From Sphingobacterium spiritivorum (GTDB taxonomy: Bacteria > Bacteroidota > Bacteroidia > Sphingobacteriales > Sphingobacteriaceae), in contig NZ_CP068082.1 of assembly GCF_016724845.1 (NCBI RefSeq), forward strand, positions 434,001 through 498,000: a DNA stretch of 64,000 nt, given 5' to 3'. The position numbers and the translations under genes are program-made. Positions 4,931 to 58,128 of the stretch are shown here, piece after piece; positions within the stretch are counted from its first letter, which is position 1, and each line of letters opens with the position of its first letter. Below the pieces are notes generated by a model. It saw only the letters and a list, made by a program, of their open reading frames with translations, was not told where the DNA came from and did no database searches.

Positions 4931-6373
4931 TTACAAACGGGGAATCCGGATACCAAAAATATCCTGCAGCGCAAGTCGGGCAGCATGGTAGCCGCACATT
5001 CCGTGAACTCCTCCGCCCGGAGGTGTGGAAGAAGAACAGATATACACCTGTTTTAGAGAAGTTCTGTAAGGAGAAAGGCTTAAGACAGGACGGGTATACA
5101 GCTGACGGATATCAATGATACCTCCGTTGATGTCCCCTCCTATATAATTTGGATTGTACGTTTCCATAGCCTGAGTATCCATCGTATTTCTGGCTAATAT
5201 CCGGTCTTTAAATCCGGGAGCAAAGCGCTCGATCTGATTCTCGATTTGTCTGCTCATATCCTGTGTCGACCCATTAGGTACATGACAGTATGCCCATACC
5301 GCCTGCTTTCCTTCCGGCACACGCCCTGTATCGAACAGGCTCTGTTGAGCAAGCAGTACAAAAGGAGTTTCGACATGTTGTCCTTTGGATGTTTTCCATT
5401 CTCCTTCAGCGATTTCCTCAAATGTATTTCCCAGATGTACAGTACCGGCAGATCGGGCATCTGCAGACCGAAAAGGAACAGGACCATCCAGAGCCCAGTC
5501 AATTTTGAATACTCCCATACCGTACCGGTATTTTTTCAATTGATTGCTATACGATTTTTTAAACCTGTTCCCGGCTATCTTGTCCAGTTGACGTGGAGTA
5601 ACATCAAATAAAGCCACTTTATGAGGAGGTAAATCATCCAGATCTTCTATCCATACGCCTGTCCGGATTTCACCCCCAAGAGAAACAAAATACGTAGCCA
5701 GTGCATCAGCTATAGCCTGCGATCCTCCCTTTGGTATAGGCCAGCCTTTACGGTGTCCGACAGCTAACAACATTAATCCTACAGCAGAAGATGCCAAATT
5801 ATGTAAAGGCTGGATCGCATGAGCTGCCATTCCGGCCCACAGAGCACGGGTCCTGGGATTCTGAAATCTGCTAACGAGAACATCTGCCGGTTGTAATGCA
5901 TAGCGTCCGAACTTAGCCATCAGCAAGGGATTCTTCGGAAAACGCAAGGGTCCCATACTATCACTGGCCAGTGCTTCCCAATGATCGGCAAAAGGTCCGA
6001 TCAGAGAACGGTAACGTTCAGCGTCATTACCTAGCGCTTCTGCTGTATCAGTAAGTGACCGGGATAAAAAGGCTGCACTGCCATCATCAAAAGGATGCGC
6101 AGCAGCAAAAGGTGCATGAATAAATTCAAGACCGAAATCTGCCAAAGGTAAAGTTGCAAAAAACGGAGAACCCAAAGCCATCGGATGAATAGCCGAACAT
6201 ACATCATGCGCATATCCCGGCAACGTTAACTCCAATGTGCGCATTCCACCCCCTACCGTTTGTTTACCTTCTATCAATAATACAGAGAGGCCTTGTTGCT
6301 GAAGCGTAATGGCTGCAGCGAGACCATTAGGTCCTGCTCCTACTATTACAGCATCATACTGGGTTTTCTTCAT
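4931..6373 (-). CDS. FAD-dependent oxidoreductase of the phytoene-desaturase-like family
   Basis: 480-residue flavoprotein. A Rossmann dinucleotide-binding motif starts at residue 9 (VIVGAGPNGLAAA) and is followed by the GGGMR motif of the CrtI / PYROXD2-like group; the C-terminal STPPGGGVHGMCGYHAA segment is the second FAD-binding motif. There is no signal peptide, so it is probably cytoplasmic. It starts 8 bp after the stop of the persulfide-dioxygenase-like gene and is the last gene of the run that begins with SusC at 15543. Carotenoid desaturation is unlikely from this context; oxidation of an imported organosulfur or its carbon skeleton is a guess. Family assignment is good, substrate unknown. 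Confidence 0.85.
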   Translation of the reverse strand: MKKTQYDAVIVGAGPNGLAAAITLQQQGLSVLLIEGKQTVGGGMRTLELTLPGYAHDVCSAIHPMALGSPFFATLPLADFGLEFIHAPFAAAHPFDDGSAAFLSRSLTDTAEALGNDAERYRSLIGPFADHWEALASDSMGPLRFPKNPLLMAKFGRYALQPADVLVSRFQNPRTRALWAGMAAHAIQPLHNLASSAVGLMLLAVGHRKGWPIPKGGSQAIADALATYFVSLGGEIRTGVWIEDLDDLPPHKVALFDVTPRQLDKIAGNRFKKSYSNQLKKYRYGMGVFKIDWALDGPVPFRSADARSAGTVHLGNTFEEIAEGEWKTSKGQHVETPFVLLAQQSLFDTGRVPEGKQAVWAYCHVPNGSTQDMSRQIENQIERFAPGFKDRILARNTMDTQAMETYNPNYIGGDINGGIIDIRQLYTRPVLSLSPYRTSLKQVYICSSSTPPGGGVHGMCGYHAARLALQDIFGIRIPRL

Positions 6374-6381
6374 TTCAACAG

Positions 6382-7821
6382 TTATTGAGGTTTTGTATTT
6401 TTAATAGCCGGCCCGAAATCATAAATAACAGCATCTTGCTGTGCCTTCCGCAGCAAACTTGTACCTATAGCCGACCGGTATCCGGAAGCACAATGAACCA
6501 CGATAGGTTTATCTGTTTTTATTTCAGCGATACGTCTCCGCAAATCAGGCAAAGGGATATTGATCGCATTCTTAAAAATACGGTTTTTACGGACTTCATT
6601 TTCATTTCGCACATCAATAATGTAATAATTCTCAGGATGTGTGGTCACATCGTTTACCACGATTTGCGGAGGTCCTTCCTTATGACGATTATATAGCAAT
6701 GCCCCCGACACCTGTCCCTCATACCCGATCTTGGCGATCTGCCGGAGTCTTTGCTGCAGGTGAACATCACTTTCAGCCAGCAGATAGAACTTTTCACCAG
6801 GCAGGATAACCGTACCCAACCAGGTTTCAAACTTACCTTCTCCTGGCATCAGCACAGCATTTTTAACATAAGATGAGGCCGTATATTTCTGAGGCCTTGT
6901 ATCCAGAATCAGCGTATCCTCCGGAAGAGCAGCATTAGCAGGCAGTACTTTTATAGCAGACAAACGTTCCTCCAGATTCGCAGCTCCCTGCAGATTGAGC
7001 TGTACATCAAATGTAAAGTATGCCGGAACAAAACCAAGATCTGCCAATATCCAGGAGACAAATTCTTCTTCGTTACGAATTTTAAAAGCAGGATTGTGAA
7101 GACGTTCATGACCGATTGTACCGGACGTCGCATCACTGATGCCCGATGCGCACAACGATCCGGCACCGTGTGCCGGATACAGATCAAGCTGATCATCTAA
7201 AGGGATCAGTTTGTTTTGAACGGTATGATACATGTCCCGCGCAAGTTGCTCCCGGGCACTATGCGGATCTCCGTCTGTATCGCGTAAATCCGGCCGCCCC
7301 ACATTTCCGAAAAGCAACGTATCACCGGAGAACAGCGCAGTATCTCTTGTTTGGTCAACCAGAATCAAAGAGATACTCTCAGGAGAATGTCCGGGAGTAT
7401 CCAGCACACGAAGATATACCTGGCTGTTTAAAACGATACGATCACCTTCATGCAAAGGCTTATGCGCAAACTTTGCCTGATACCTGTTTCCTACATAGAC
7501 CGGAATCCGCAGGCGGCGCTGCAATTCTGCATGTCCACTCACGAAATCTGCATGCGGATGTGTTTCTATAACAGCAATGATATGCAGCTTATTTGCTTCT
7601 GCAAAATCCAGATATGGTTGTATATCTCTTGCCGGATCGATCAGCAAAATAGATGTATCATCATAGACTGCATAGGAAAATTGCGCCAGTCCTTCATCCG
7701 TAAACTGATGAACATGGTAGTTCTTATTTTCATTACGTATTCCCCAAGCTATGCTTTTTGCCGATAAGCAGAACAGTCCTATTCCAAGAATACCTTCTTT
7801 CACAAAACGTCTTCTATGCAT
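6382..7821 (-). CDS. CstB-like persulfide dioxygenase fused to two rhodanese domains, exported
   Basis: Domain order: metallo-beta-lactamase-fold persulfide dioxygenase (about residues 35-270), a pseudo-rhodanese without active Cys (about 300-380), then an active rhodanese (about 390-475, C444 in HCASGYRS). Metal-site motifs are visible: THPHADF (H88, H90, D92), H145 in DTPGHS, D167 in FSGDTL, and PAHGAGSLC. The Phe after HAD is what I recall from the Blh/CstB type. The start at 7821 is preferred over 7890: it has a GGAG ribosome site, overlaps the rhodanese stop by one base (TGATG), and begins with an RRRF twin-arginine-like signal, so a periplasmic site is likely. Family role: oxidation of persulfide to sulfite or thiosulfate. 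A periplasmic version inside a SusCD run is unusual. Confidence 0.88.
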   Translation of the reverse strand: MHRRRFVKEGILGIGLFCLSAKSIAWGIRNENKNYHVHQFTDEGLAQFSYAVYDDTSILLIDPARDIQPYLDFAEANKLHIIAVIETHPHADFVSGHAELQRRLRIPVYVGNRYQAKFAHKPLHEGDRIVLNSQVYLRVLDTPGHSPESISLILVDQTRDTALFSGDTLLFGNVGRPDLRDTDGDPHSAREQLARDMYHTVQNKLIPLDDQLDLYPAHGAGSLCASGISDATSGTIGHERLHNPAFKIRNEEEFVSWILADLGFVPAYFTFDVQLNLQGAANLEERLSAIKVLPANAALPEDTLILDTRPQKYTASSYVKNAVLMPGEGKFETWLGTVILPGEKFYLLAESDVHLQQRLRQIAKIGYEGQVSGALLYNRHKEGPPQIVVNDVTTHPENYYIIDVRNENEVRKNRIFKNAINIPLPDLRRRIAEIKTDKPIVVHCASGYRSAIGTSLLRKAQQDAVIYDFGPAIKNTKPQ

Positions 7822-8264
7822 CAGTGATCTCCTTTCTCCTTCGTACTGTCCTGTGTATCCTTCTTCAGGAGATATCCCTTCTCTTCCCATGCCTTTATTC
7901 CTCCGCTGAGATTGATGACTTCCTTAAATCCCAGACTGATCAAACGATCAGCAGCCTGACGGCTTCTGTTGCCACTTCTGCAGTACAGGTATACAGGCCG
8001 GTTTTTCGCCAGCTTTTGTATACCCTGCTCAAAAGCGGTGCTATCCTTCCAGTTCAGCAAAATTGATCCCACAATAGCACCTTCTGCATATTCTCCAGGA
8101 GTACGTACATCAATGAGTTGTATCGTACTATCCGTAAGCAGAGCAGTCCTAAAATGCTCCGCATCCCGGTTTCCATTTTGTTGGGCATGTACTGCATACG
8201 GGAGGAGCAGCCAGAGAAAGACCAGCCCGTTAGTATATATTTGTCTAATTATTATTTTGTCCAT
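7821..8264 (-). CDS. Periplasmic single-domain rhodanese
   Basis: 147-residue sulfurtransferase with a Sec signal peptide (hydrophobic core, then YAVHAQQ) and one rhodanese domain. The active-site loop is YCRSGNRS with catalytic C95; IDVRTPGEYAEG is the conserved start of the domain and SGGIKAWEEKGY its end. It would carry sulfane sulfur as a Cys persulfide, and the next gene in the run encodes the enzyme that could oxidise that sulfur. Its start overlaps the end of the DoxX-like gene by 20 bp and its stop overlaps the next start by one base, which points to coupled translation. Confidence 0.9.
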   Translation of the reverse strand: MDKIIIRQIYTNGLVFLWLLLPYAVHAQQNGNRDAEHFRTALLTDSTIQLIDVRTPGEYAEGAIVGSILLNWKDSTAFEQGIQKLAKNRPVYLYCRSGNRSRQAADRLISLGFKEVINLSGGIKAWEEKGYLLKKDTQDSTKEKGDH

Positions 8265-9723
8265 AGCTGTAAATATTATTACGGGTATACCATCCTTTTC
8301 CGATAGGATGCTGTTCTTCTTGTTTGTTCAGAACCACCTGTATAGAATCTTTATCATTAATCTTACCTGCTAATCTGATACTTCCGTTTGGTAGTCTGTC
8401 GTACTGCCAGCGCAGAATATGCAGACTGTCCCGCCAGGCTGTCTGATATTTTTGTTTCAGATCCATACATATATCACTGCGCTCACGCACCAGTTCTTTT
8501 GCAAACTTTTGGTTTTTGTCTACCAGATACAAGTAATTAGCAGTGCTGTCTATTTCATAATAGAGATACCGCTTACCACCTGCCCTGCCGGTAAATTCAT
8601 AATCTTTAAAGAGATCTGTAGCTTTAGGTGTGCCGTTATCCAGATTAATAGGATATGCCTTATTGACAGTATAGACCAAAGTAGAATACCGTTCGAAAAC
8701 AGCATCATGCCAGCGGACAGAATCCAACGGATTATAAGGAAGTGTTTTACCATTAAGATCGAAAGCGGAAATATGATAATATCCTGCAGCACCTGCCAGT
8801 CCCGGCACTATAGGTTCCTTTAGTTTGCCTTCATTATAATGCATTTCATAACGCTTATATCCGTAGTAAAAAAGAAACAGCAGAATAAACAGATACTTAC
8901 TACCCTTATAAAATAACCTGCGTCCGGCAGTGTCCCATTGAGGTGTATAGTAACTGGGTTGAAAATCCTGCTTTTTGATAAACACCTGCCATATACCCGG
9001 GATATATTGCAACAATACAAACAGGGAAAGAACAACAAAATATCCGCTGTACAGATGCACAGCTCCATCATACGCCAGATTTGCATGTGCTATATTATAC
9101 AGCACACCGGCATTGATAACAGCCCCCAATGCCGTCGTTCTTCTGAAAAACATTAATACTCCGGCTCCGATCTCCAGAAAGCCCAGAAAAATCTGATACC
9201 ACAGCGAAAGTCCTACTGCCTGCCAGTATAGTTTGAATGGAGCATAATCTCCAAATGCAGTATGCAGATTTGCTTCCGAAGGAAAGGGCATCTGCATCGG
9301 ATATAATTTCAGATATCCAAAAGCTATAATTCCGATCGCAATCCGGTAACGGGCCAGCACACGCAACCAGTAGTATCCTTTCGAAACAGGAAAAGGGGCA
9401 GACTTGCGGGTTAACCAGGCCCAAAGATAGGCACCCGCAATTGCGATCAAAGCCGTAAGTCCCCACGAGGTAAAAGAGAGTAGCCCCCATTTGCCGCTCT
9501 CTCCTGATATCTCGATCAGACCCGGACGAAATCCGGCTACAGATGACAATACTTCATAGAAAGATTTGCTTTTGAACAAGTGGGCATACCATTCATATTT
9601 TACAGGAATAATAAAGAGCAGAATAAATATAAAGAAGAATCGGAAGATAATATTTCTACCCGAATCCCATCGGTCTATGGACGTTTTCACATATCCCGGT
9701 TCGATAATAGTGCTTTGTGTCAT
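8245..9723 (-). CDS. DoxX-like integral membrane protein with C-terminal soluble domain (paralogue 2)
   Basis: 492-residue membrane protein. The N-terminal two thirds holds about seven hydrophobic segments, including a DoxX-type bundle (GIIAFGYLKLYPMQMPFPSE, then a region rich in LEIGAGVLMFF and YNIAHANLAYDG). The last 180 residues form a soluble domain starting near GLAGAAGYYHISAFDLNG. It is a paralogue of the next gene upstream (9729-11060), sharing segment order and the AAGYY..S.F.LNG..PY..D..RW motif. DoxX-type subunits elsewhere belong to thiosulfate:quinone oxidoreductases or sulfur-linked redox systems; here a role in passing electrons from sulfur oxidation to quinone is inferred from neighbours only. 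Confidence 0.75.
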   Translation of the reverse strand: MTQSTIIEPGYVKTSIDRWDSGRNIIFRFFFIFILLFIIPVKYEWYAHLFKSKSFYEVLSSVAGFRPGLIEISGESGKWGLLSFTSWGLTALIAIAGAYLWAWLTRKSAPFPVSKGYYWLRVLARYRIAIGIIAFGYLKLYPMQMPFPSEANLHTAFGDYAPFKLYWQAVGLSLWYQIFLGFLEIGAGVLMFFRRTTALGAVINAGVLYNIAHANLAYDGAVHLYSGYFVVLSLFVLLQYIPGIWQVFIKKQDFQPSYYTPQWDTAGRRLFYKGSKYLFILLFLFYYGYKRYEMHYNEGKLKEPIVPGLAGAAGYYHISAFDLNGKTLPYNPLDSVRWHDAVFERYSTLVYTVNKAYPINLDNGTPKATDLFKDYEFTGRAGGKRYLYYEIDSTANYLYLVDKNQKFAKELVRERSDICMDLKQKYQTAWRDSLHILRWQYDRLPNGSIRLAGKINDKDSIQVVLNKQEEQHPIGKGWYTRNNIYSYGQNNN

Positions 9724-9728
9724 AGCTG

Positions 9729-11060
9729 TTAATAGATTTTTATAGGATGACGACGACCCTTATAGAGTAAATATTCTTTTGGAGTACGCTGCAGTGTGAT
9801 TTTCAGGGAATCCTGAGAGGCAGACACACCGGTGAGGATAAGCTGATCCTTACCGTGTCGCTCCACCTGAAAGACATAGCGATCATCTTCCACAATCTTA
9901 TTCTGTAATTCAATACGGCGTCCTCCATCTCTGATTTCGTATCGGTAGAAATGACGACCTCCGTTACCCAATTGCTCGAAATTGCGCAAACTATCAGGCT
10001 GATACACAATCTTGGGACGCAGACTATCTATAACTCCCGGATTATTATTCCGCACGCTCAATGTATTCCAGTTTTCAAATACCACATTTCTCCATCGCTT
10101 ATCATCCTCTAAAGAATAGGCTGTTGTATCTCCGTTCAGAACAAAATGGCTAACATTATAATAGCCTGCAGCATCTTCCAGCCCGGCCTGCTCGGGGTAA
10201 GGATAGCGCTCATAAGACCATATCCGGTAAATACCTCCTGTTAATACCAGCGTAAACACAAGTACAGCTATTTTCAGCCCCTTTCTGTATTGCTGACCGC
10301 GGGTACTGTATAGAGGTTCAAAAGTATCTGCAACAGTATATTTTTCCAGAAAAAGCAGGCTGTAAAGTCTGGGAAGATCATACCATAAAATAGCAAAGGA
10401 CAGCAACAGTAAAAAAGAGCTATAGACCTGCTCCCCTATTCCATATGCATAATTGGCCAATACGATATTGAGCAACAGACATAGTGCTATGGCCGCACCT
10501 ATAGCAGTTGTTTTACGAAACAACAGCAAAACTGCCGCAGCAATTTCCACCAGACCGAGCGCAGGTACATATCCTGCAGAACTGACAGACGTACTCAGAA
10601 AATAGACTTTCCAGGGTAAAAAGTCACCATAATCTGTATGCAGGTCGCTAAGCGTTGGCAATGGCAACAAGACCGGAAACAACTTGACAATACCCGTAGC
10701 CAATAAAGCTATCGCTAACCGGTATCGTAAAAGGACCCTTAATATATAATACAAGCGGTCGGCAGCCACTTCCCGCTTATACAGAATCTGCAATAATACC
10801 GCACCTGCCAGCGCAACAACAAGTGCAATTATCCAGTTAAGATAGCCTTCCAGTTGAAGTCCGACATGCTGATCTTCCGAGAAGAACGAAGTATGATATG
10901 TTGCGAGTTGATAAAAACTTTCAATGCTCAGTAACTTACGGCTTATATCTTCAAACAATACCGGATTGACAGGAATACTCAACAGACCAAAAAATATGAA
11001 GGCCGCCAACAGAGCAAAGACCTGGCCTTTGCTCCACGAATCGTGTAGTGATTTATTCAT
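9729..11060 (-). CDS. DoxX-like integral membrane protein with C-terminal soluble domain (paralogue 1)
   Basis: 443-residue paralogue of the adjacent gene. Hydrophobic segments cover roughly residues 13-260, with the DoxX-like stretch LVEIAAAVLLLFRKTTAIGA and LLLNIVLANYAYG; a soluble C-terminal domain follows from LEDAAGYYNVSHFVLNG. It begins 11 bp after the SusD stop and ends 5 bp before the second paralogue, so the two are surely co-expressed and could form a heterodimer. The two copies have diverged well beyond recent duplication. Function in sulfur redox chemistry is inferred from the rhodanese and persulfide dioxygenase downstream. Confidence 0.75.
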   Translation of the reverse strand: MNKSLHDSWSKGQVFALLAAFIFFGLLSIPVNPVLFEDISRKLLSIESFYQLATYHTSFFSEDQHVGLQLEGYLNWIIALVVALAGAVLLQILYKREVAADRLYYILRVLLRYRLAIALLATGIVKLFPVLLPLPTLSDLHTDYGDFLPWKVYFLSTSVSSAGYVPALGLVEIAAAVLLLFRKTTAIGAAIALCLLLNIVLANYAYGIGEQVYSSFLLLLSFAILWYDLPRLYSLLFLEKYTVADTFEPLYSTRGQQYRKGLKIAVLVFTLVLTGGIYRIWSYERYPYPEQAGLEDAAGYYNVSHFVLNGDTTAYSLEDDKRWRNVVFENWNTLSVRNNNPGVIDSLRPKIVYQPDSLRNFEQLGNGGRHFYRYEIRDGGRRIELQNKIVEDDRYVFQVERHGKDQLILTGVSASQDSLKITLQRTPKEYLLYKGRRHPIKIY

Positions 11061-11071
11061 CCTGATAACGA

Positions 11072-12436
11072 CTATTCATATCCGGGATTCTGTACAAGAT
11101 CTGCATCGACTTCCACATCGTTGTATGGAATAGGAAATATCCACTTCCGCTGGTCCGTGACACCCAGTACCGTTGATGCACGACCTGTACGCACCAGATC
11201 AAACCAGCGGTGAGGTTCGAGTACAAACTCTGCTCTCCGCTCCTGCTCGATATCACTCAGCAGTGTTTCCTTGTTAGAAAGAACCCTGACACTGACATTT
11301 GCACGCCGGCGTACCGCATTCAAGTCCGAAAGGGCTCCTTGCAGATCAGGGGCAGTGCTTTTTGCACGTGCTTCTGCGCGGATCAGATATTGTTCCGCCA
11401 GTCGAAGAATATACGTCGGATTGTCTCCGGAAGAGCGCCAATACAACTTCTGAATGAAGTAATTGCGTATGGTGGCTGTAGAATTGTCCGTAATCAGTGC
11501 TTTGCGGTCCCCTCCTACATTTGCCTGTTGCAAAAACTGATACACCTCAGGTCCCGGACCGTACTGGTTGCGGTAACTGAGACTCGACCAGGAGCCAAAA
11601 TGTGCACTTTGATCAGCAGCTGAAAAGGCCAGTTCAAAGACGGATTCCTTTGTATTAAGTCCGCCCAGAATAGTTGACCAGGGCACCAGTTCGTAATTTG
11701 TATTTCCAATTACCTTTGTTGCATACTCAATTGCCTTATCCCAGTTTTCCTGATAGAGATATACCTTTGCTTTCAGCGCATATACAGTATTCTTAGTGAC
11801 GCGATTCCGGTCTACAGTGGCAGGCAAAAGAGTTTCTGCCTGATCCAGATCTTTCAATACCTGTGCATAGACCGTTTTTTGATCGCTTTGCTTCACACCG
11901 CTGAAATCAGACGGAGATTTGGTCGCCTGCAATACGACCGGGATATTACCCCATGCTTTTGCCAGATCAAAGAAGGCTAACGCGCGCAGGAAATGTGCCT
12001 CTCCTGTGAATTTATTTCTTGCATCTGCGGTAATAGATTCACTACTCAGCGCAGCTACTTTCTCAATCACATTATTGGCGCCATTCACGACCTTATAGAT
12101 ATCGTACCATACATTATTGATCAAGGTATTATCCGGACGGTATTCGTGTACGGGAAAGGCATTGTAATAATTGAGTGTACCGACCCAGATGTGGTCACCA
12201 CCGGACAGATAAGCCATCGCAGCGTAACCGTCACCTCCATAATACAGACGTGACTGCAGCGCACTGTAAACTCCTAAAACAGCCGTTTCTGCCGTATTTT
12301 GATCTACCACAATGGCATTGCCTGAAATAGATTGTGTGGGATCAACATTCAGAAAATAATCCGAGCAACTACTAAGTCCGGATAATAAAGTCGTTCCCAG
12401 AAGCAGGTATATTATATATTGATATTGTGTTTTCAT
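11072..12436 (-). CDS. SusD/RagB-family outer-membrane lipoprotein
   Basis: Substrate-binding lid of the SusCD pair in the sulfur run. The ATG at 12436 gives a lipoprotein signal ending in SGLSSC (Cys at about residue 24); an in-frame ATG at 12457 lies seven codons earlier. The family pattern is clear: QSISGNAIVV near the N-terminus, ALAFFDLAKAWGNIPVV in the TPR-like core, LIRAEARAK, and the RRAEFVLEPHRWFDLVRTGRA block followed by a C-terminal NPGYE. Length about 454 residues is usual. Gaps are 41 bp to SusC and 11 bp to the DoxX-like gene. Confidence 0.95.
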   Translation of the reverse strand: MKTQYQYIIYLLLGTTLLSGLSSCSDYFLNVDPTQSISGNAIVVDQNTAETAVLGVYSALQSRLYYGGDGYAAMAYLSGGDHIWVGTLNYYNAFPVHEYRPDNTLINNVWYDIYKVVNGANNVIEKVAALSSESITADARNKFTGEAHFLRALAFFDLAKAWGNIPVVLQATKSPSDFSGVKQSDQKTVYAQVLKDLDQAETLLPATVDRNRVTKNTVYALKAKVYLYQENWDKAIEYATKVIGNTNYELVPWSTILGGLNTKESVFELAFSAADQSAHFGSWSSLSYRNQYGPGPEVYQFLQQANVGGDRKALITDNSTATIRNYFIQKLYWRSSGDNPTYILRLAEQYLIRAEARAKSTAPDLQGALSDLNAVRRRANVSVRVLSNKETLLSDIEQERRAEFVLEPHRWFDLVRTGRASTVLGVTDQRKWIFPIPYNDVEVDADLVQNPGYE

Positions 12437-12477
12437 TTTAAATATATTGATGATCAAATCGTAAGAAAAACCGTTGA

Positions 12478-15400
12478 TTATAAAGTAAGGTTGACACCAA
12501 ACTGATAGACACGGGCATGTGGAGGCATAGAGAAATCCAGCCCCTGTACAGTCGCTCCGGCCTGACTTTGCGCTACATTGACTTCCGGATCGGGCCCGCT
12601 GTAACCTGTAAAAGTCAGCAGATTCGTCGCATTGAAATATACTCCCAGTTTTTTGATAACAGTTTGCTTTCCAAGCAATGCTGTCGGAAAGGTATAGCCT
12701 ATATTGATATATTTCAGACGGATAAAGGAAGCATCTTCCAGAAATCGGCTGCTTTCATAATTGTGATTGTAACTTCCGTCCGGATTTTGCAAAGTTGTGA
12801 TACGCGGAATATCCGTCACATCCCCCGGTTCCTGCCAGCTGCGAAGCATGCTGGATAACATGGACCAGGAAGTCCCTCTGCTCCCTGCGTGTTCCTGAAA
12901 ATAACGGTTCATGTTAAACACCTTATTTCCCTGAGAAAAGTAGAAGTTAAATGCAAATGAAAAATTCTTGTAGCTCAACTGATTGGTCAGGCTTCCGTAA
13001 ATGGCTGGCCATGCATCGCCTACGATCTGACGGTCATCTACCGTGATCTTTCCGTCTCCGGTACGGGAATCATCGTATACCGCATTTCCGGTCTGTGTAT
13101 CTACATACAATTGTTTATACAGCCAGAAAGAATACAAGGGATATCCCTCTTCTATCCGTACCCAGTCTCTGTTATATTGGGTAAAGGATTTGGATAATTT
13201 TTCAACCTTATTCTTGTTATGAGAGATATTGAATGTCGTATTCCACTGAAAATGATCATTGGTAATATTCAATGTCTTCAGTTCGATTTCAAATCCCTTA
13301 TTACTGATTTCTCCAAAATTCTGATAAGAAGAACTGAATCCGGTCTTCGCCGGAGTCGGCACTTCCAACAGCAGATCTTTGGTATACTTATTATAAAGAT
13401 CCACATTCAGACTTACACGTCTGTCGAACAACGAGGTTTCCAGTCCTACATTCCACTGCCGGGTGGTTTCCCATTTCAGATTTTCATTACCAAGCTGTGT
13501 AGGCGCTACCCCCGGTTTATCCAGATAGTTGTTACCGCCGGTCCAGAGCAGTTGAGAGGAGAAGTCCGGAATCCCCTGATTCCCGGTCCATCCGATACTA
13601 CCTTTCAGCTGTAAAGTATTGATAAATGAAAGATTCTGACGCAAAAAATCCTCTTTCGCTATATTCCATGCTGCACCTACAGAAGGAAATGTCGCCCAGC
13701 GATTGTTCGCTCCGAACCGTGAAGATGCATCTGTACGTACATTCGCATCTAAGCTATACCGATCTTTAAACGTATAGTTGACACCACCGAAATAGGAGAT
13801 CAGTCCATTATATAACCTGCCGGTAGCTGAGGCTGTAGTGACCGCTGCTGAAGAGATCGTTGTAAACTGCGTACTTGGATAATTGGTACCTGTCAGCGAG
13901 GCACGGCTTATAAAACCGCGTTGCAATGTATTGCCAAGGAAAACAGAAAGAAAGTGTTCCTTATCGGATAACGGAATATAATTCAGCAACTGTTCAGCGA
14001 CCCATGTTGTTTCAGTAGAAAGTACATCACGTCCGCTTCCGTTTGTAGCCAGACCCTGATTAAGATTGGCATTGTAATAGATCACTTCATTGTAAGAATT
14101 ATCATCCAGACTGAAAGACGATTTAAAACTCAGGTTTTTCAATATATTCCATTTTGCAAATACATTACCGATCAGGTGTTTGCCATACGCATGGCTATTG
14201 CTATTTTCCAGCAATACATACGGATTATTGAAGCGCTCGCCTCTGTTGTAGGTTCCGTCCGCATTAAACAAAGGAGTCAATGTCGGCGTGTGTAATCCGG
14301 TATTGGTAATACCTCCGGTATCCCCTGTCGGTACGGTCTCCCGTTCGGTACTGCTGTAAGCTATGCTTGTCCCGATGGAAAGAGCCGAACTAATCTGATG
14401 GTCCAGATTGGTACGGAAGGAGAGTCGGTTAAAATCCTGTAATTTGAGGATAGATGGTTGTTTGGTATATTCTCCACTCAGGAAGAAAGAAGTCTTCTCT
14501 CCTCCTCCGGCAACAGAAAGGTTGTGTGTGGTCTGTACCGGATCCCGGAAAATAAGACTCAATCTGTCGTAGGTTCCCTGATCTTCCGGATTGCCGGCTC
14601 CACCTTCACTTAGCGGACGGTAAGGTCGTGTTTCATAACTCTTACCATCATTGATCCACTGCTGATTCAGAATGGAAGCATGCTCCGGCCCTGTTACAAG
14701 ACTCCATACCTTGGGCGTAGTAGCCTTACCGATTACAGAGTTAAGATTGATGCGGGTAGCTGCATTGCGTTTTCCTCTTTTAGTAGTGACTATAATAACT
14801 CCGTTTGCACCACGGGAGCCATACATAGCCGTAGCATTTGCATCTTTGAAAACTTCGATAGATTCAATATCCGCAGGATTGATATCGGCCAGCGGATTGA
14901 TATTCTGTCCTCCGGCATTTACATTCTGCAGGGATCTGCTATTGATAAATACACCGTCAATAATGTACAGCGGATCATTATTTGCATTGATGGAAGTTGC
15001 TCCGCGCAGCCTTACTAATGCGGAACCGCCCTCGACACCGGAAGCCGAAGCAATCTGCAAACCCGGAGCCAGGCCCTGAATCTTCTCACTTAGACTGACG
15101 CCTCCCTGAAATTCCAGCGCCTTGCCTTTAACCTCGGTAATAGCGCCTGTTTCGGAAGAACGACGCTTTTGCGCATATCCCACAACAACGACCTCATCCA
15201 GTTGATCCTGATTTTGAGATAAGACAATAACTGCAGGAGAAGAGCGTATCACCACTTTACGTTTGGTATACCCGACCACGCTTACAATCACTGTTGCAGG
15301 AAGTTTCTGGCCCGTGACCAGTTTAAAATTTCCAAGTTCGTCCGTCTGTACCTGATGCGTTACAGCCTCAAGTTGTACAGTCGCTCCTGCTATAGGATTA

Positions 15401-15543
15401 CGCGTCAGCGAGTCAATCACCTTTCCGGCGATAGAGGCATTGATCAGCGGAGTGGATTGACCGTATGCCGTTACATGTATTCCACAAAGGAAAACCATGC
15501 AAAGAAGTGTACTAAAAACACGGTTTCTAGTATTATTTTTCAT
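12478..15543 (-). CDS. SusC/RagA-family TonB-dependent transporter
   Basis: 1021-residue outer-membrane transporter. Signal peptide (about 1-28), carboxypeptidase-regulatory-like domain (about 35-110), the LDEVVVVGY TonB-box-like segment, plug domain (about 120-240, with MYGSRGANGVIIVTTKRGK), then the beta barrel ending in FGVNLTL. There is no STN domain and no sigma/FecR pair nearby, so it is probably not an ECF-cascade receptor. It is the first gene of the seven-gene run with sulfur enzymes. The leader of about 270 bases holds a short Cys/Met-rich ORF (15729-15812) and an antisense-oriented terminator (15623-15654). The substrate is unknown; an organosulfur or thiol compound is my inference. 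Confidence 0.95.
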   Translation of the reverse strand: MKNNTRNRVFSTLLCMVFLCGIHVTAYGQSTPLINASIAGKVIDSLTRNPIAGATVQLEAVTHQVQTDELGNFKLVTGQKLPATVIVSVVGYTKRKVVIRSSPAVIVLSQNQDQLDEVVVVGYAQKRRSSETGAITEVKGKALEFQGGVSLSEKIQGLAPGLQIASASGVEGGSALVRLRGATSINANNDPLYIIDGVFINSRSLQNVNAGGQNINPLADINPADIESIEVFKDANATAMYGSRGANGVIIVTTKRGKRNAATRINLNSVIGKATTPKVWSLVTGPEHASILNQQWINDGKSYETRPYRPLSEGGAGNPEDQGTYDRLSLIFRDPVQTTHNLSVAGGGEKTSFFLSGEYTKQPSILKLQDFNRLSFRTNLDHQISSALSIGTSIAYSSTERETVPTGDTGGITNTGLHTPTLTPLFNADGTYNRGERFNNPYVLLENSNSHAYGKHLIGNVFAKWNILKNLSFKSSFSLDDNSYNEVIYYNANLNQGLATNGSGRDVLSTETTWVAEQLLNYIPLSDKEHFLSVFLGNTLQRGFISRASLTGTNYPSTQFTTISSAAVTTASATGRLYNGLISYFGGVNYTFKDRYSLDANVRTDASSRFGANNRWATFPSVGAAWNIAKEDFLRQNLSFINTLQLKGSIGWTGNQGIPDFSSQLLWTGGNNYLDKPGVAPTQLGNENLKWETTRQWNVGLETSLFDRRVSLNVDLYNKYTKDLLLEVPTPAKTGFSSSYQNFGEISNKGFEIELKTLNITNDHFQWNTTFNISHNKNKVEKLSKSFTQYNRDWVRIEEGYPLYSFWLYKQLYVDTQTGNAVYDDSRTGDGKITVDDRQIVGDAWPAIYGSLTNQLSYKNFSFAFNFYFSQGNKVFNMNRYFQEHAGSRGTSWSMLSSMLRSWQEPGDVTDIPRITTLQNPDGSYNHNYESSRFLEDASFIRLKYINIGYTFPTALLGKQTVIKKLGVYFNATNLLTFTGYSGPDPEVNVAQSQAGATVQGLDFSMPPHARVYQFGVNLTL

Positions 15544-15654
15544 ATTTTTGATTGGTTTTAATATAAAATTTCAATAACAAGCCACAACGCCAATTGAACA
15601 CTTGTTGTTGATATGAGCCCATCAGGGAGGTAGTTTATACTTCCCTGTTTTTTT
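15543..15654 (+). ncRNA. Candidate antisense RNA ending at a + strand terminator in the SusC leader
   Basis: An 8-pair hairpin with one G-U (arms 15623-15630 and 15640-15647) is followed by seven T (15648-15654), the layout of a + strand intrinsic terminator, yet no + strand gene ends here. On the - strand the same stem has a C-A mismatch and no T run. A TATTTTTG box on the + strand at 15543-15550 fits the -7 consensus, but no good -33 box precedes it, so the 5' end is a guess. Antisense RNAs next to susC genes are known from Bacteroides (DonS type). Confidence 0.35.
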
Positions 15655-15829: not shown

Positions 15830-16143
15830 AATTTTAATTCATTTTACTGTGTTTTGAAATGTTACTGAACGCTGAAGAGTTGATCTTCAGGAGCTCAGAA
15901 ACACTGATCAATATTAAATAGTCATAATACAAGTACAAACATACAATAAAATCTACTAAATCAATAGACTTTATTAATTATTTTTAATTTTCCTTTCTGA
16001 ACAGGTTTTTAAAAGCCTTCAGGCAGCCTTAAATCTCACAAGAATACGCTGCATCTGACAGCTATCTCTCAAGAATAAAAATCGCCGATTAAACATTTTT
16101 TAGATTAAATCCTCACCTCCACCCTGATTATTTCAAAATTAAT

Positions 16144-16216: not shown

Positions 16217-18565
16217 ATGTCTCTTCCCTTACCCAAACTACAAGTCAGATTTTTCAGATACAGTCTGCTTTGCATGCTGATTCTTTTAGTAAATCATACT
16301 ATTGCACAAGCACAATCCATACAACTTCTTGTCCGGGATGAAAGTAATCGTCCACTTCCGCACGCGACAGTTTACCTCAACAAAAAAGCTACAGGGTCTA
16401 CCAGCCGGGGCGGCTCATTCAACATCCCTCAGCAATCTTCCAATACATTTCAGCTGACCGTCTCTTCTCTCGGATATCAAACTTATACAGGCATATTACG
16501 CACAGACACACTTTCAAATCCCTTTATTATCACGCTAAAAGACAGCAGATCTCTGGATGAGGTAGTTGTCACTGCGGGTAGAAAAGCAGAAAGCATAGAT
16601 GAAATACCATCTTCTGTATCTATTCTGACACGTAAGGAAATAGAGGCACAGATCAATATCACCTCCAATTTAGCCTCTATACTTGGCAATACGATACCGG
16701 GATTGGGAACATCCAACAACAAATCCACTAATTCGGGACAGACTCTGCGGGGACGCGCGGTATTGGTGCTGATTGATGGAATCCCTCAGTCTACTCCATT
16801 GATGAATGGCAGTCGCGATCTTCGCACTATAGATCCAGGTGTAATCGAGCGCATTGAAGTAATCAAGGGAGCAACCTCTATATATGGCAACGGATCCGGT
16901 GGAGGTATTATCAATTACATCACCAAAAAGAACACAGACAATGTACCTCTCTCCGGACAGACATTTGCAGGAACGTCCTTCAATCCGGTACATCCGGGTC
17001 AGACGATGGGCTATCGCTTTGCACAAATGTTTTCAGGCAGGAGCAACAAATTCAGTTATACGGTAAGCGGATCTGCAGATTATACAGGCCTGCAAAGGGA
17101 TGGAAAAGGCCTTCCTATCGGACAGCAGGATGGTATGTCCAATTCTTATCAGTACAATGCTTTTATCAAACTGGGATACGACCTGGACAGTAACACTTCC
17201 ATAAGTGCATTCTACAATCTTTACAACAGTACACAACATACACGCTATATCAATCAAGCTGGTGTATACGGAGAATCTCCTGCCATCGGTGTACGTGGAG
17301 AAGAACCCGGTGAAAATGCCGGCACTCCATACAACCATAATATTATGATGAACCTGACAAAGCGTAATCTTTTCGGACAGACGCAACTGGATCTCAGCGG
17401 ATATTACAATTCATTCAGTTCCATGAACAGATATGTACCTTCGGGAACAGCATGGTACGGACCGGGACAAACAAAGATCAACTCCGAGAAAAAAGGAGTC
17501 CGAATTAACCTCAACACGCCTTTCCGTATCGGAAATATCCCGACAGAAGTAACATATGGATTGGATTTACTGAATGATGTCACAAATCAAAACCTGACAG
17601 ATGGCAGAATTTATATTCCGGATATGAATATGGTTAACTTTGCACCATACGCGCAATTGAAAATGGATGTACTGGAAAACCTTATTTTTAAAGGAGGAGT
17701 ACGCTATGAAAATGCGACCGTCAAGGTAAAAGATTTTAACACCATTGCAACCGGACCTGATGGTCAGGGAAGCATAGCTGTATCAGGAGGAAAGATTCCC
17801 TACAAAGCGACTATGTTTAATGCCGGCCTCCGCTATACGAAATATGACATCTTTAATCCTTTTGTTAGTTTCTCTCAGGGTTTTGCTATCAATGAACTCG
17901 GGCGTATACTCCGTCGTGCAAAAGCAAATACATTAGATCAGCTGGAGACAGACCCTATTATCACGAATAACTATGAGGTAGGATTTTCGAGTCAGTATAA
18001 CTGGCTTCATCTATCAGCGGCCTACTACATCAGCACATCCAAGCTTGGAGTCAATCTGGTAGATGTGGGTGGTTTCCTGATGGCACAACGTGAACCTGAA
18101 AATGTAAAAGGATATGAACTGGCTGCTGAAGCAAGACTTTCGCCACAATGGACGCTGGGCGCAAACTATGCTTTTGTAGAAGGAAAAGCCAAATTTGACG
18201 ACGGACGCAAAGTATATCTCAACGGATCACGTATAACTCCGCCCAAAGCCACAGCCTATGTGTATTACAGACCGGCTTCCCATTGGAATCTTCAACTCTT
18301 CTGGGTACATACCGGCTCAAGGGATCGTTTTCCACTCAATGACAAAGGAAAATACAACAACAGTGAGGGTCCGATCAAACCTGTGGACTTATTTAATCTG
18401 TCCGCAGCATACACGATCAATACCAAATGGAGCCTGGGTCTGGGTGTAGAAAATCTTTTCAACAAGACGTACTATCCTACAGTCAGCCAGTATCGCGCCA
18501 TAGATGCCGAATATGCCAGAGGTAATGGCATGCAGGCAAATATTAATATCCATTATAAGTTTTAA
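16217..18565 (+). CDS. TonB-dependent siderophore-type receptor with carboxypeptidase-like N-terminal domain
   Basis: 782-residue outer-membrane receptor of the FepA/FhuA-like type rather than the SusC type. Signal peptide (about 1-33, TIAQAQS), carboxypeptidase-regulatory-like domain (about 35-110), LDEVVVTAGRK TonB-box-like segment, plug (about 125-240, with GATSIYGNGSGGGIINYITKK), then a barrel ending in INIHYKF. No STN domain. It is followed after 2 bp by a PepSY-domain membrane protein, a pairing common in iron-siderophore uptake, where the membrane protein may reduce the ferric siderophore. Iron control is expected but I see no Fur box I would trust. Confidence 0.9.
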   Translation: MSLPLPKLQVRFFRYSLLCMLILLVNHTIAQAQSIQLLVRDESNRPLPHATVYLNKKATGSTSRGGSFNIPQQSSNTFQLTVSSLGYQTYTGILRTDTLSNPFIITLKDSRSLDEVVVTAGRKAESIDEIPSSVSILTRKEIEAQINITSNLASILGNTIPGLGTSNNKSTNSGQTLRGRAVLVLIDGIPQSTPLMNGSRDLRTIDPGVIERIEVIKGATSIYGNGSGGGIINYITKKNTDNVPLSGQTFAGTSFNPVHPGQTMGYRFAQMFSGRSNKFSYTVSGSADYTGLQRDGKGLPIGQQDGMSNSYQYNAFIKLGYDLDSNTSISAFYNLYNSTQHTRYINQAGVYGESPAIGVRGEEPGENAGTPYNHNIMMNLTKRNLFGQTQLDLSGYYNSFSSMNRYVPSGTAWYGPGQTKINSEKKGVRINLNTPFRIGNIPTEVTYGLDLLNDVTNQNLTDGRIYIPDMNMVNFAPYAQLKMDVLENLIFKGGVRYENATVKVKDFNTIATGPDGQGSIAVSGGKIPYKATMFNAGLRYTKYDIFNPFVSFSQGFAINELGRILRRAKANTLDQLETDPIITNNYEVGFSSQYNWLHLSAAYYISTSKLGVNLVDVGGFLMAQREPENVKGYELAAEARLSPQWTLGANYAFVEGKAKFDDGRKVYLNGSRITPPKATAYVYYRPASHWNLQLFWVHTGSRDRFPLNDKGKYNNSEGPIKPVDLFNLSAAYTINTKWSLGLGVENLFNKTYYPTVSQYRAIDAEYARGNGMQANINIHYKF

Positions 18566-18567
18566 AT

Positions 18568-19749
18568 ATGTTGCGTTCAGCAGTTTTATGGATACATAAG
18601 TGGATGGGAATCCTCAGTGGTATAGTTGTACTCTCGCTGGGTATTACGGGATGCCTTTATGTTTTTCAGGAAGAATTGAAACTGCTCTTCTATCCGCAAA
18701 AATATTTCTTAGAAAAGAAACACAATGATGCACCTATGCCGCTGAGTACGCTTATTGCCCATGCTCAGGCGGCTATACCGCCATCACACCGTATCACGCG
18801 TGCAGACCTCTATCCCGATCCGTCCCGCACATGGATATTCAGAGCATCCAAAACAAATGAAAATGCATTCGGGCACTGGAATTATTACAGTTACTATGAC
18901 CGTGTCTTTGTAAATCCCTATACCGGAGCAGTCACAGCAGTAGAAGATTCAAAGAATGAATTCTTTCAGTTGGTTCTCCAAATGCACATGAATCTCTTAC
19001 TCGGAAAAAAGTATGGACACCCGATAGTTGGCTATGCTACTGCAGTATTTGTGCTGTTGCTGATCAGCGGACTCATCCTGTGGTGGCCGAAAAGATGGAA
19101 AGGAAAAACATTAAAACGCAGCATATGGATAGACCGGAAGGCCAAATGGAAAAGACTCAACTATGATCTGCACAATGTACTTGGATTTTACAGTCTTTTT
19201 ATCGGACTCTTAATAGGTATAACAGGATTGGTATTTGCATTTCCAGCGTTTGAAAAATCCTATGTAAACTTTTTCAACCACCTGGGGGCAAGTGAAATTA
19301 AACAGGACAAACCCAATTATCCATTTGTATCCGGAACGGAAGCCTCAGCAATGGATAAAGCCCTTTACTTTGCAATCAAAAACTATCCAACGGCGGACAT
19401 GATGTCTTTGCGCCTTCGTAATGAGGCTGACAAACCTGTGGACATACAGATTCGCTTACAAAAAGATAAAACAAGCCGGTTCAAATGGTATTATTTTGAT
19501 GCTGTGACAGCACAGATCGTCAATATAAAGAGTGATGACAATCTCTCGGGAGGAGAGAAACTGCGCTCTATGAATTATGATCTTCATGTAGGAAGTATAG
19601 GTGGTTTGCCAACTAAAATTCTGGCTTTCTTTATTTCTCTGTTCTGCGCCTCTTTACCTGTTACAGGATATATTCTGTGGTGGCAAAAATCTTCCAAATC
19701 CAATAAAAAATCCAACCGCAGAAAAACAAGGCACAGACAACCTGCCTGA
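18568..19749 (+). CDS. PepSY-associated TM-helix (PiuB-like) membrane protein
   Basis: 393-residue inner-membrane protein with four clear helices at about residues 10-33, 152-172, 205-230 and 351-372, two of them ending in ILWW. The loop between helices 1 and 2 and the one between helices 3 and 4 hold PepSY-type sequence. The N-terminal WIHKWMG histidine and those near helices 2 and 3 are typical of this family, suspected of ferric-siderophore reduction. It begins 2 bp after the TonB receptor stop, so the two are one operon. The C-terminus is a basic tail (KSNKKSNRRKTRHRQ) on the cytoplasmic side. Confidence 0.88.
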   Translation: MLRSAVLWIHKWMGILSGIVVLSLGITGCLYVFQEELKLLFYPQKYFLEKKHNDAPMPLSTLIAHAQAAIPPSHRITRADLYPDPSRTWIFRASKTNENAFGHWNYYSYYDRVFVNPYTGAVTAVEDSKNEFFQLVLQMHMNLLLGKKYGHPIVGYATAVFVLLLISGLILWWPKRWKGKTLKRSIWIDRKAKWKRLNYDLHNVLGFYSLFIGLLIGITGLVFAFPAFEKSYVNFFNHLGASEIKQDKPNYPFVSGTEASAMDKALYFAIKNYPTADMMSLRLRNEADKPVDIQIRLQKDKTSRFKWYYFDAVTAQIVNIKSDDNLSGGEKLRSMNYDLHVGSIGGLPTKILAFFISLFCASLPVTGYILWWQKSSKSNKKSNRRKTRHRQPA

Positions 19750-56038: not shown

Positions 56039-56983
56039 CTAATACCGTATTACAGTGACATATCCTTTATTGATATGGATTTTTCCGTTTGGCAACTCCA
56101 CCTCCAGGATATAGAAGTACGTACCTTGGTTAAGACCGATAGCACTCCAGTCATTTTGGTATTGATGCGATCGGTACACCTCATTACCCATTCTGTTGAA
56201 AACAGTCAGTTTATTTCTGGCACTGGTATCCAGTCCTTTAATAACAAAGGAATCATTCTTGCCATCTCCGTTAGGAGTGATAATATTAGGAATATTCAGG
56301 AATACAATATTTACCGTTGAGCTCGCTTCATTATCCCCCGTAAGTGCATCTTTCTCCCTTGAAGTAACTTTACTCATAGTAATGGCATTTCCTTCCGAAA
56401 TAGCCTCTACATTTATCCATAGCGAAGCAGAACCCCCGGCTTCCATTTCACTGATCTTCCAGATCAGTTGTCTGCTGCTTGCCTGATAAAATAATTCTCC
56501 CGGATAAGTTCCCGTTGGACCTACATACTCGATTTCACGAGGGATATTGAATGTGATAACCAACTCATGTGCCGGATCGTTACCATTGTTGAGCACCATA
56601 AGCTGATAATTGTACTTACGACCAACCTGTACTGTATTTGCGTCCGGAAGATTTCGTATCTCCAGATTGACCTCTACGTCTTCTCCAAACGGATCAACTA
56701 TAATTTCCACCGGGTCAGAAAGATCCGAATTACAGCCTTCACCCAACGCAATAACGGTATAAATGCCAGCTTCTGTCACCGTAATCCGCTGATCATGAAA
56801 TCCGTTTAGCGGTTCATTATTCTTAAACCAGATATACGACAAAGCGTGCTCGGCATCAGCCCGTAAAGTGACTTTTTTTCCTTTGACAATATGCAAAGTC
56901 TGTCCCTGTTGCGCCGTTGCTTCTGATAAGAGAAGCAACAGTGCAACCAGAAAAGATAAAATATATCGGGACAGACGTAGCAT
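56039..56983 (-). CDS. Secreted protein with gliding-motility-associated C-terminal domain (T9SS type B-like)
   Basis: 314 residues. Signal peptide (about 1-24, SEATAQQ), Ig-like domain (about 28-95), DUF11-like domain (about 105-215, NTVQVGRKYNYQLMVLNNGN), then the CHU_C/gliding-motility-associated C-terminal domain (about 225-314; NIPNIITPNGDGKNDSFVIK, FNRMGNEVYRSHQYQNDWSA, LNQGTYFYILEVELPNGK, GYVTVIRY). That last domain is a type IX secretion sorting signal, so the protein should reach the cell surface. It lies 20 bp after the Ig-like protein gene and is the last of a three-gene run. Confidence 0.88.
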   Translation of the reverse strand: MLRLSRYILSFLVALLLLLSEATAQQGQTLHIVKGKKVTLRADAEHALSYIWFKNNEPLNGFHDQRITVTEAGIYTVIALGEGCNSDLSDPVEIIVDPFGEDVEVNLEIRNLPDANTVQVGRKYNYQLMVLNNGNDPAHELVITFNIPREIEYVGPTGTYPGELFYQASSRQLIWKISEMEAGGSASLWINVEAISEGNAITMSKVTSREKDALTGDNEASSTVNIVFLNIPNIITPNGDGKNDSFVIKGLDTSARNKLTVFNRMGNEVYRSHQYQNDWSAIGLNQGTYFYILEVELPNGKIHINKGYVTVIRY

Positions 56984-57003
56984 CTTGTATTATTCTATAT
57001 CGG

Positions 57004-58080
57004 TTAGTCTGTGACTGCCTCGATAGTAATATGTGGTTTACCTGGCGTAGGCGTAACCGTAATAATCAGATCACTGGCTCCGTTTACTGCAAAATCTCTG
57101 TAGATCACATACGGTCTGTTACGGTTAGCCGGGTCATCAGCCGACAGCCCGTTACTTCTGTCTTTAATGGCATACTCAGCCTCCACGAGGATTTTGTACT
57201 TACCAAAAGCAGCTATCTGCGGAAAAATAGAATTAGCCGTCCCTGTCAGTGCAGTTACACCAGTCAAAGTACTTGGATCAAATTTAGCATCATCAATGCT
57301 TGCACCTGCCAAAGGTGCATTTGCGGCATCTACCTTGACAGCGTACCAGCGGTAGTTAATTGTAAAATCACCGACTGCCGGAGTAAGTCCGCTGGTTACA
57401 AAGGAAGGTGTAGCTGTAACCTGTACTTTAGCCTGTGTATTGGAACCTGAACTTTCAGACTCACAAAAAGCAAAATCTGTAGCACCACCCGCTAATACCC
57501 CAGCAGAAGCAATATTTAAGCGAGGCAATACATACACCACGAATACTTCTTCCTGAGGAGTACAAAGTGCACCTACCGGAGCGTTATCCGGATTGACAAC
57601 ACCCTGTACTTTAAAGTAATGGTATCCTTCAGTCAGGTTGGTCAATGGCAATTTGTTATTCGCAGTAGTAGCATCCTGCACTACAGAATATCCACCGGCA
57701 ACTAAATTTGTATTAAACGCTGCTCCAGAAGCAGCCGCTGTACCTGAAGTACCCATATAGTACCAGGTATAATTAGTGAATCTTAACGCTGTACGTGGTG
57801 TTGGCAGCACACTCACATCTTCATTAAGTGCTGCTACCAGTGTCAGAGAAGGACCATTAGTTGCGGGATTATAAAACAGTATAGAGTTGACTGTTTCGTA
57901 TGCCGAAGTACCATTCGTCAGTACGGGAGTAATAGCAGTGACACGCCCGGCATCTGTAACAGAAGTTGAAGGTCCTACATTCAAAGGCGGATTACTGATA
58001 CTTTGCCCCCATACCGCTGTTCCTGAACATAAAAGCAAAGCGATCACGCCGGCTCTTATTTTTTGAATTTTTCTTTTCAT
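57004..58080 (-). CDS. Secreted Ig/PKD-like protein with GKPHITI tail
   Basis: 358 residues; signal peptide (about 1-25, GTAVWGQS). Two or three strand-rich Ig-like units follow (NYTWYYMGTSGTAAASGAAF, NYRWYAVKVDAANAPLAG), with a Cys pair CTPQEE...CESESS. The last residues read PGKPHITIEAVTD, closely like the end of the next gene upstream (PAQGKPHLTIQNIIN). No T9SS domain. Probably exported with, or bound to, the CHU_C protein encoded 20 bp downstream. No family name beyond Ig-like. Confidence 0.72.
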   Translation of the reverse strand: MKRKIQKIRAGVIALLLCSGTAVWGQSISNPPLNVGPSTSVTDAGRVTAITPVLTNGTSAYETVNSILFYNPATNGPSLTLVAALNEDVSVLPTPRTALRFTNYTWYYMGTSGTAAASGAAFNTNLVAGGYSVVQDATTANNKLPLTNLTEGYHYFKVQGVVNPDNAPVGALCTPQEEVFVVYVLPRLNIASAGVLAGGATDFAFCESESSGSNTQAKVQVTATPSFVTSGLTPAVGDFTINYRWYAVKVDAANAPLAGASIDDAKFDPSTLTGVTALTGTANSIFPQIAAFGKYKILVEAEYAIKDRSNGLSADDPANRNRPYVIYRDFAVNGASDLIITVTPTPGKPHITIEAVTD

Positions 58081-58128
58081 ATTGATTACTTAATTGATGT
58101 TAATATTTTGTTGATTTTCCATAGTTAT

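Follow-up and report, generated by a model that had tools for sequence, protein, structure and literature searches.

Organization of the SusCD locus

The window analyzed is a stretch of 64,000 nucleotides (positions 434001-498000) of the complete 5.28 Mb Sphingobacterium genome designated G000. The open reading frame listing and the translations confirmed seven minus-strand genes between window positions 4931 and 15543, which are presented with the upstream features in Table 1. From SusC to the FAD oxidoreductase, the listed reading frames are spaced by 20, 11, 5, -20, -70, and 8 bp. The listed SusD frame starts with TTG at 12457, and the spacing between SusC and SusD is 41 bp when SusD starts at the ATG at 12436. 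A better start for the CstB-like gene lies at 7821 (GGAG..ATG, the protein beginning MHRRRF), giving a one-base overlap with the stop of the rhodanese gene. These coordinates and gaps agree with an earlier reading made from the sequence only, in which the seven genes lay within 41 bp of each other or overlapped. Such an arrangement is compatible with a single transcript, and the genes would then be co-transcribed.

Table 1. Features of the locus in window coordinates, in the order of presumed transcription, with the basis of each assignment.
Feature	Position	Strand	Basis
Bacteroidota-type promoter-like site (TTG ... TATGTTTG) upstream of the leader ORF	15936..15964	-	Seen in sequence
Putative leader ORF, 27 codons, MKTQTFTSLSMLSLNTVLRMCSPMCMC	15729..15812	-	Cys at three of the last seven codons
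Hairpin 1 (CAGGGAAGTATAAACTACCTCCCTG)	15623..15647	-	Seen in sequence
Hairpin 2, conserved core AATTGGCGTTG between pairing arms	15572..15610	-	Word counts, pairing test
SusC, TonB-linked outer-membrane transporter, 1021 aa	12478..15543	-	TIGR04056, orthology, clade
SusD lipoprotein	11072..12436	-	PF07980 and PF14322 over cut-off; ATG start at 12436
Dox1, DoxX-like membrane bundle with C-terminal lipocalin-like barrel, 443 aa	9729..11060	-	Predicted structure, sub-threshold DoxX
Dox2, paralogue of Dox1, 492 aa	8245..9723	-	Sequence identity; sub-threshold MauE/DoxX among homologues
Single-domain rhodanese (P0003), Sec-type N-terminus	7821..8264	-	PF00581, 73 bits
CstB-like persulfide dioxygenase/pseudo-rhodanese/rhodanese (P0002), Tat-like signal	6382..7821	-	Domains, 3tp9, 3r2u, motifs
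FAD oxidoreductase, CrtI/CrtO/amine-oxidase superfamily	4931..6373	-	Pfam/NCBIfam; adjacent in many relatives

Encoded proteins

The assignment of SusC and SusD by the sequence-only reading was borne out by the family models. SusC scored 766 bits against TIGR04056 (cut-off 368) and, with SusD adjoining, falls within the SusC/RagA family, while SusD exceeded the cut-offs of PF07980 and PF14322. As in a PUL, SusC and SusD head the operon. Unlike in a PUL, they are followed by a sulfur oxidase and membrane DoxX-like proteins, and no carbohydrate-active enzyme was recognized among the seven operon proteins in the Pfam and NCBIfam scans, so that the locus does not qualify as a PUL.

The two genes behind SusD, read earlier as DoxX-like, are real, and the DoxX name has sub-threshold DoxX/MauE matches and weak structural matches behind it. 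Neither Dox1 nor Dox2 (the paralogues P0004 and P0005), which share 33% identity, reached the cut-off of any Pfam or NCBIfam family. The best DoxX score of Dox1 was 11.6 bits against a PF07681-type cut-off of 23.6, with weak matches among homologues, and judged by cut-off neither Dox protein belongs to the DoxX family. Dox1 has no sequence relative in the PDB. Its predicted structure (pLDDT 85) matched barrels at middling Z when the full model was searched. The C-terminal barrel matched lipocalin-type folds at Z 7-8.8 over about 100 residues with Foldseek E > 0.001, within the Z range of common folds. The model of the membrane domain weakly matched NACHO/TMEM35A (Z 8.4 over 110 residues) and GGCX (Z about 5), both in the range of common arrangements. 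The lipocalin-like domain of the model suggests ligand binding.

The next two genes encode the rhodanese-type enzymes, whose earlier identification holds, as does the presence of export signals on both: as read from the sequence, the rhodanese has a Sec-type N-terminus and the CstB-like enzyme a Tat-like RRRF. The rhodanese, matched by PF00581, contains the active-site loop CRSGNRS. The CstB-like enzyme combines Lactamase_B and rhodanese domains, and its best PDB matches, 3tp9 and 3r2u, aligned along the whole mature protein. The motifs THxHAD, TPGH, and SGD are kept, the last rhodanese domain contains HCASGYR, and the middle rhodanese domain lacks the Cys (LLAESD). By architecture this protein is a CstB, but an exported one, with the oxidation of persulfide to thiosulfate as its predicted activity. 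It shares with Staphylococcus aureus CstB (PDB 3r2u) the dioxygenase, pseudo-rhodanese, and rhodanese in one chain, and differs from it in its Tat-like signal, its presumably periplasmic location, and its place inside a SusCD operon. An RRx[FL] motif was found in 23 of 24 CstB-labelled reading frames of the data set, the exception (L086) lying outside SusCD-Dox operons.

The genome of the window encodes three further full-length CstB-like paralogues, two without a signal and one with a Sec-like signal. The extra CstB-like genes at G000:C1:2450000-2466000 (L202) and 1282000-1292000 (L201) adjoin genes for TSUP-like and YeeE-like membrane proteins and cNMP-type regulators. In many relatives a secreted protein with a conserved CGC motif, unassigned to a family, adjoins CstB and replaces the rhodanese of the window (L093, L095, L102, L104, L106-L109, L111, and L037); it is possibly a sulfur carrier.

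The last gene encodes an FAD oxidoreductase, and the call as such was sound: the protein is CrtI/CrtO/amine-oxidase-like. The best match in a profile search was phytoene dehydrogenase 4dgk. There was no equivalog assignment, no phmmer match below 1e-10, and no apparent signal peptide.

Conservation of gene order

A family sample of 201 genomes was searched with Dox1, and matches were obtained in 104 genomes, the strong ones being tandem pairs. Regions of 20 kb were fetched for 46 strong loci and for 14 distant relatives present in single copy. Nearly all Dox pairs lie directly behind SusC and SusD, and none of the 14 single-copy relatives is placed in this way. When the Dox1 alignment was run against named genomes, 80 loci in the same order were obtained, from Pedobacter, Mucilaginibacter, Sphingobacterium, Flavobacterium, Chitinophagaceae, Dyadobacter, Runella, Siphonobacter, and Emticicia, among other taxa. 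SusC-SusD with a tandem Dox pair is the conserved core of about 106 non-redundant loci in Sphingobacteriaceae, Chitinophagaceae, Flavobacteriaceae, and Cytophagales. Many Bacteroidota share the order SusC-SusD-Dox1-Dox2-(sulfur oxidase)-FAD, and one ground named in the sequence-only reading for its own refutation, an order unique to this strain, accordingly fails. In a broad sample of the phylum, tandem Dox pairs occurred in 5 of 395 genomes, G000 included; the SusCD-Dox system is therefore widespread yet a minority trait.

Pooling both sets gave 125 loci, with some genomes drawn twice because the sets overlap, and genes of relatives were called by a simple longest-ORF method. These loci contain SusC (117), SusD (119), FAD oxidoreductase (72), YeiH-like protein (57), cytochrome c (48), SoxC (46), S51 peptidase (25), CstB (22), and YfcH (16). 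What accompanies SusCD constantly is the Dox pair, not the persulfide enzymes. CstB and SoxC never occur together in one operon of the 125 loci, and some operons of relatives have neither oxidase, with FAD and/or YeiH only. The sequence-only reading of a persulfide-oxidation operon accordingly stands in its link to sulfur but not in its overall theme, as CstB with rhodanese is one of two interchangeable modules.

It could be supposed that a SusCD pair for glycans merely precedes unrelated sulfur genes, as a chance or selfish neighbourhood, given how common such genes are (138 TonB/SusC-like matches in G000). The order conserved across several families largely refutes chance adjacency, and the history of SusC tells against it as well. 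The Dox-linked SusC was the best match to the window SusC in seven of seven other genomes, and the next paralogue was usually at least 300 bits lower, with closer ones in G182 (839 bits) and G052 (681 bits). In a FastTree phylogeny of 95 SusCs, a quick tree with long branches, operon-linked SusCs cluster with strong support in a single group that also takes in a few unlinked members; L150 is a linked SusC that lies outside. The linked/unlinked label changes 7 times on the tree, compared with 28.6 in shuffles. Together with the Cys-codon leaders described below, these observations make a chance neighbourhood highly improbable.

Sulfur link beyond CstB

Among the alternatives to CstB, the oxidase met most often passes the NCBI cut-off for SoxC (TIGR04555) and in many relatives stands with a cytochrome c, in both respects like the sulfane/sulfite dehydrogenase SoxCD. 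It differs in that SoxYZ, SoxAX, and SoxB were not recognized beside SoxC in the operons of relatives, and no SoxC match over cut-off was obtained in G000. Of the 201 family genomes, 26 encode a SoxC that exceeds the cut-off, and in 23 it lies no more than 10 kb from a Dox pair (G041, G167, and G197 being the others). A Tat-like motif is present in 37 of 49 SoxC-labelled reading frames, and some others have an N-terminal hydrophobic segment. The interchange of CstB and SoxC is paralleled in Cupriavidus, where a persulfide dioxygenase relieves sulfane sulfur after SoxCD loss, standing in for it (PMC9959259).

The recurrent YeiH-like transporter scored 95 bits against the YeiH model, whose cut-off is 232.6, and matches PF03601; it is a putative sulfate transporter. 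In G000 the YeiH-like gene lies outside the operon, elsewhere in the genome. Marker genes of sulfur assimilation were found near 13 of 126 loci, in some cases only Rrf2 or TSUP, and these few neighbours weigh lightly as support. In a few relatives, genes for Cys/Met biosynthesis and family 2A encapsulin adjoin the operon. L124 and L159 have family 2A encapsulin genes with CysE and MetY beside the SusCD-Dox operon, the encapsulin of L124 being accompanied by a cysteine desulfurase and L159 also having CysK. A family 2A encapsulin compartment is raised by sulfur starvation in a cyanobacterium (PMC8049743).

Use of sulfated glycans or sulfate esters should also be considered: SusCD would import a sulfated sugar, and the sulfur genes would process the released sulfur. 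Sulfatases do occur near three loci of the 125-locus set, and at L181 a sulfatase adjoins another SusCD pair that is accompanied by FAD, rhodanese, and YeiH genes. Neither a glycoside hydrolase nor a sulfatase is present in the window operon or most relatives, however, and sulfate esters yield sulfate, for which CstB and SoxC would both be unneeded. We regard this explanation as quite improbable. The L181 locus (G052:C1:411500-424500) is itself a second kind of sulfur locus, with a Dox1-like protein, the FAD protein, SusCD, an arylsulfatase-like protein, a rhodanese-thioredoxin fusion, a fatty-acid-hydroxylase-like protein, YeiH, and its own leader ending CCC.

Leader ORF and hairpins upstream of SusC

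Upstream of SusC, the promoter-like site was called by its likeness to the Bacteroidota promoter consensus. A scan for sigma-70 promoters gave 27 matches against 25.9 in shuffles, with no excess. Start, length, and the MCMC ending of the window leader are kept in L033 and L034. Compared with L034, 27 of 84 bases differ without third-position bias, a pattern expected if only the Cys codons of this putatively translated leader matter.

Leaders were counted when at least three Cys fell in the last ten residues of a short ORF upstream of SusC, a criterion chosen after examples had been noticed, for which all-amino-acid and antisense controls were added as a guard. Leaders of this kind precede 52 of 106 non-redundant linked loci (2.6 in shuffles), about half lacking one by this criterion; among other genes that have a long upstream gap, 15 of 194 qualified (p = 7e-16). 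Six of 27 unlinked SusC paralogues, chosen as near relatives, also passed. When all amino acids were compared over the last eight residues, cysteine stood out (49 vs 2.0 in shuffles), and four or more Cys were reached in 33 cases vs 0.0. Methionine was slightly raised (8 vs 1.6), and the antisense-strand control gave 3 for Cys.

Hairpin 1 can be read as a terminator only on the plus strand, with no T-run on the strand of the operon. As for hairpin 2, word counts place the core ATTGGCGTT or its reverse complement upstream of SusC in about half of the loci. The arms around it vary in sequence while pairing is kept: at least six pairs form in 18 of 25 and 20 of 24 cases for the two orientations (4.3 and 2.7 in shuffles). 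The orientation of ATTGGCGTT inside the hairpin differs by locus, e.g., L043 and L053. A role of the core as a genome-wide operator was ruled out, since CAATTGGCGTTG is single copy in G000, and an Rfam search for known riboswitches upstream of SusC gave chance matches only.

Attenuation by an amino acid is classically marked by a run of its codons in a leader. The leader ORFs and hairpins point to cysteine-responsive attenuation. Polycysteine leader ORFs were reported in mycobacteria by Canestrari et al. (2020), as cited in PMC9031893, and the present leaders resemble them as short Cys-rich ORFs upstream of an operon. The mycobacterial leaders differ in belonging to another phylum; here the ORF lies well upstream, two hairpins intervene, and an outer-membrane SusCD system would be controlled. 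The finding of Cys leaders ahead of SusC is new here. Cys-ending leaders were also seen ahead of other SusC/TonB-receptor genes (L095, L068, L107, and L183), which suggests a cysteine-controlled outer-membrane regulon wider than the SusCD-Dox operon. Elsewhere in G000, leaders ending in CCC-stop occur at 46 sites, a pattern that would miss the window's own leader; no convincing sulfur gene was found at the 30 sites examined.

Proposed role in sulfur acquisition

The substrate of most SusCD pairs is not known, and glycans or peptides are assumed. For the present pair, the recurrent gene order, the near-single SusC clade, and the Cys-codon leaders ahead of SusC all tie it to sulfur chemistry, as the sequence-only reading had proposed. 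That idea is largely upheld overall, with persulfide oxidation as one module only. From a Cys-codon leader with sulfur enzymes downstream, we infer that the operon answers cysteine shortage, and since the control signal looks like shortage, acquisition of a sulfur nutrient fits better than persulfide oxidation alone. The operon is thus probably a sulfur-nutrient utilization system under cysteine control.

In the process envisaged, charged Cys-tRNA would become low and ribosomes would stall at the Cys codons of the leader, whereupon the downstream hairpins would change and the SusC operon would be expressed. SusCD would then import a sulfur-containing molecule for which diffusion would not suffice because of its size or rarity, most likely organosulfur or a thiol, our best guess being organosulfur. 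Within the periplasm, sulfur may be passed via the lipocalin-like domains of the membrane-bound Dox1 and Dox2 and the exported rhodanese to the Tat-exported oxidase, which here would be CstB and in many relatives SoxC with cytochrome c. Thiosulfate, sulfite, or sulfate would be the product available for assimilation, and the electrons would pass to O2 or a quinone/cytochrome chain. Which way sulfur flows, which substrate is taken up, and what Dox1, Dox2, and the FAD protein do are likewise conjectural parts of this scheme.

Against assimilation, it should be noted that an oxidizing module is not an obvious need there. Alternatively, SusCD would import polysulfide, elemental sulfur, or persulfide for energy or detoxification, with periplasmic oxidation to thiosulfate or sulfate yielding electrons or protection and YeiH, where present, expelling sulfate. 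CstB and SoxC are both oxidative, and cytochrome c stands beside SoxC. Moreover, the YeiH model is named putative sulfate exporter (the match being below its cut-off), and the lipocalin-like domain could hold a hydrophobic ligand. The Cys-codon leader, however, signals cysteine shortage rather than sulfur excess, and no place would be left for the FAD protein or for the S51 peptidase that many relatives have. This explanation is in our view unlikely, albeit less so than the use of sulfated glycans.

Returning to sulfur-nutrient utilization, the nearest functional analogue is, by comparison, the Flavobacterium PusCD system (PUSI/PUSII), a SusCD-like pair with periplasmic enzymes for phosphate that is induced by phosphate starvation (PMC8115612). 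What the two systems share is a SusCD-type pair next to periplasmic enzymes that act on an element other than carbon. The present operon differs in that sulfur enzymes replace the phosphatases, a Cys-codon leader and a DoxX-like pair are present, and the starvation response is deduced. No description of such an operon was met in the literature searched, a weak absence as subscription journals were mostly outside its scope. With a probability that we place only just above even, these loci represent a new class of SusCD locus for cysteine-attenuated sulfur utilization in several orders of Bacteroidota, in which Tat-exported oxidases and lipocalin-bearing DoxX-like proteins would lead to assimilable sulfur. 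If so, sulfur would be added as a nutrient class for a SusCD clade marked by its partners and a Cys-codon leader, and a context would be provided for SoxC lacking other Sox genes in Bacteroidota. The leader would also serve as a sequence-readable signal for finding further sulfur-controlled TonB systems, and the culturable genera Sphingobacterium, Pedobacter, and Flavobacterium are open to testing.

Other genes of the window

Divergently from the operon, a TonB-dependent receptor and a PepSY_TM protein, an iron-uptake-like pair, are encoded at 16217-19749 on the plus strand; the pair is conserved in L033, not in most relatives. At 56039-62085 on the minus strand lies the gene of a large protein with many Ig_7 (CHU_C-associated) repeats, near that of a protein carrying a type IX secretion signal domain.
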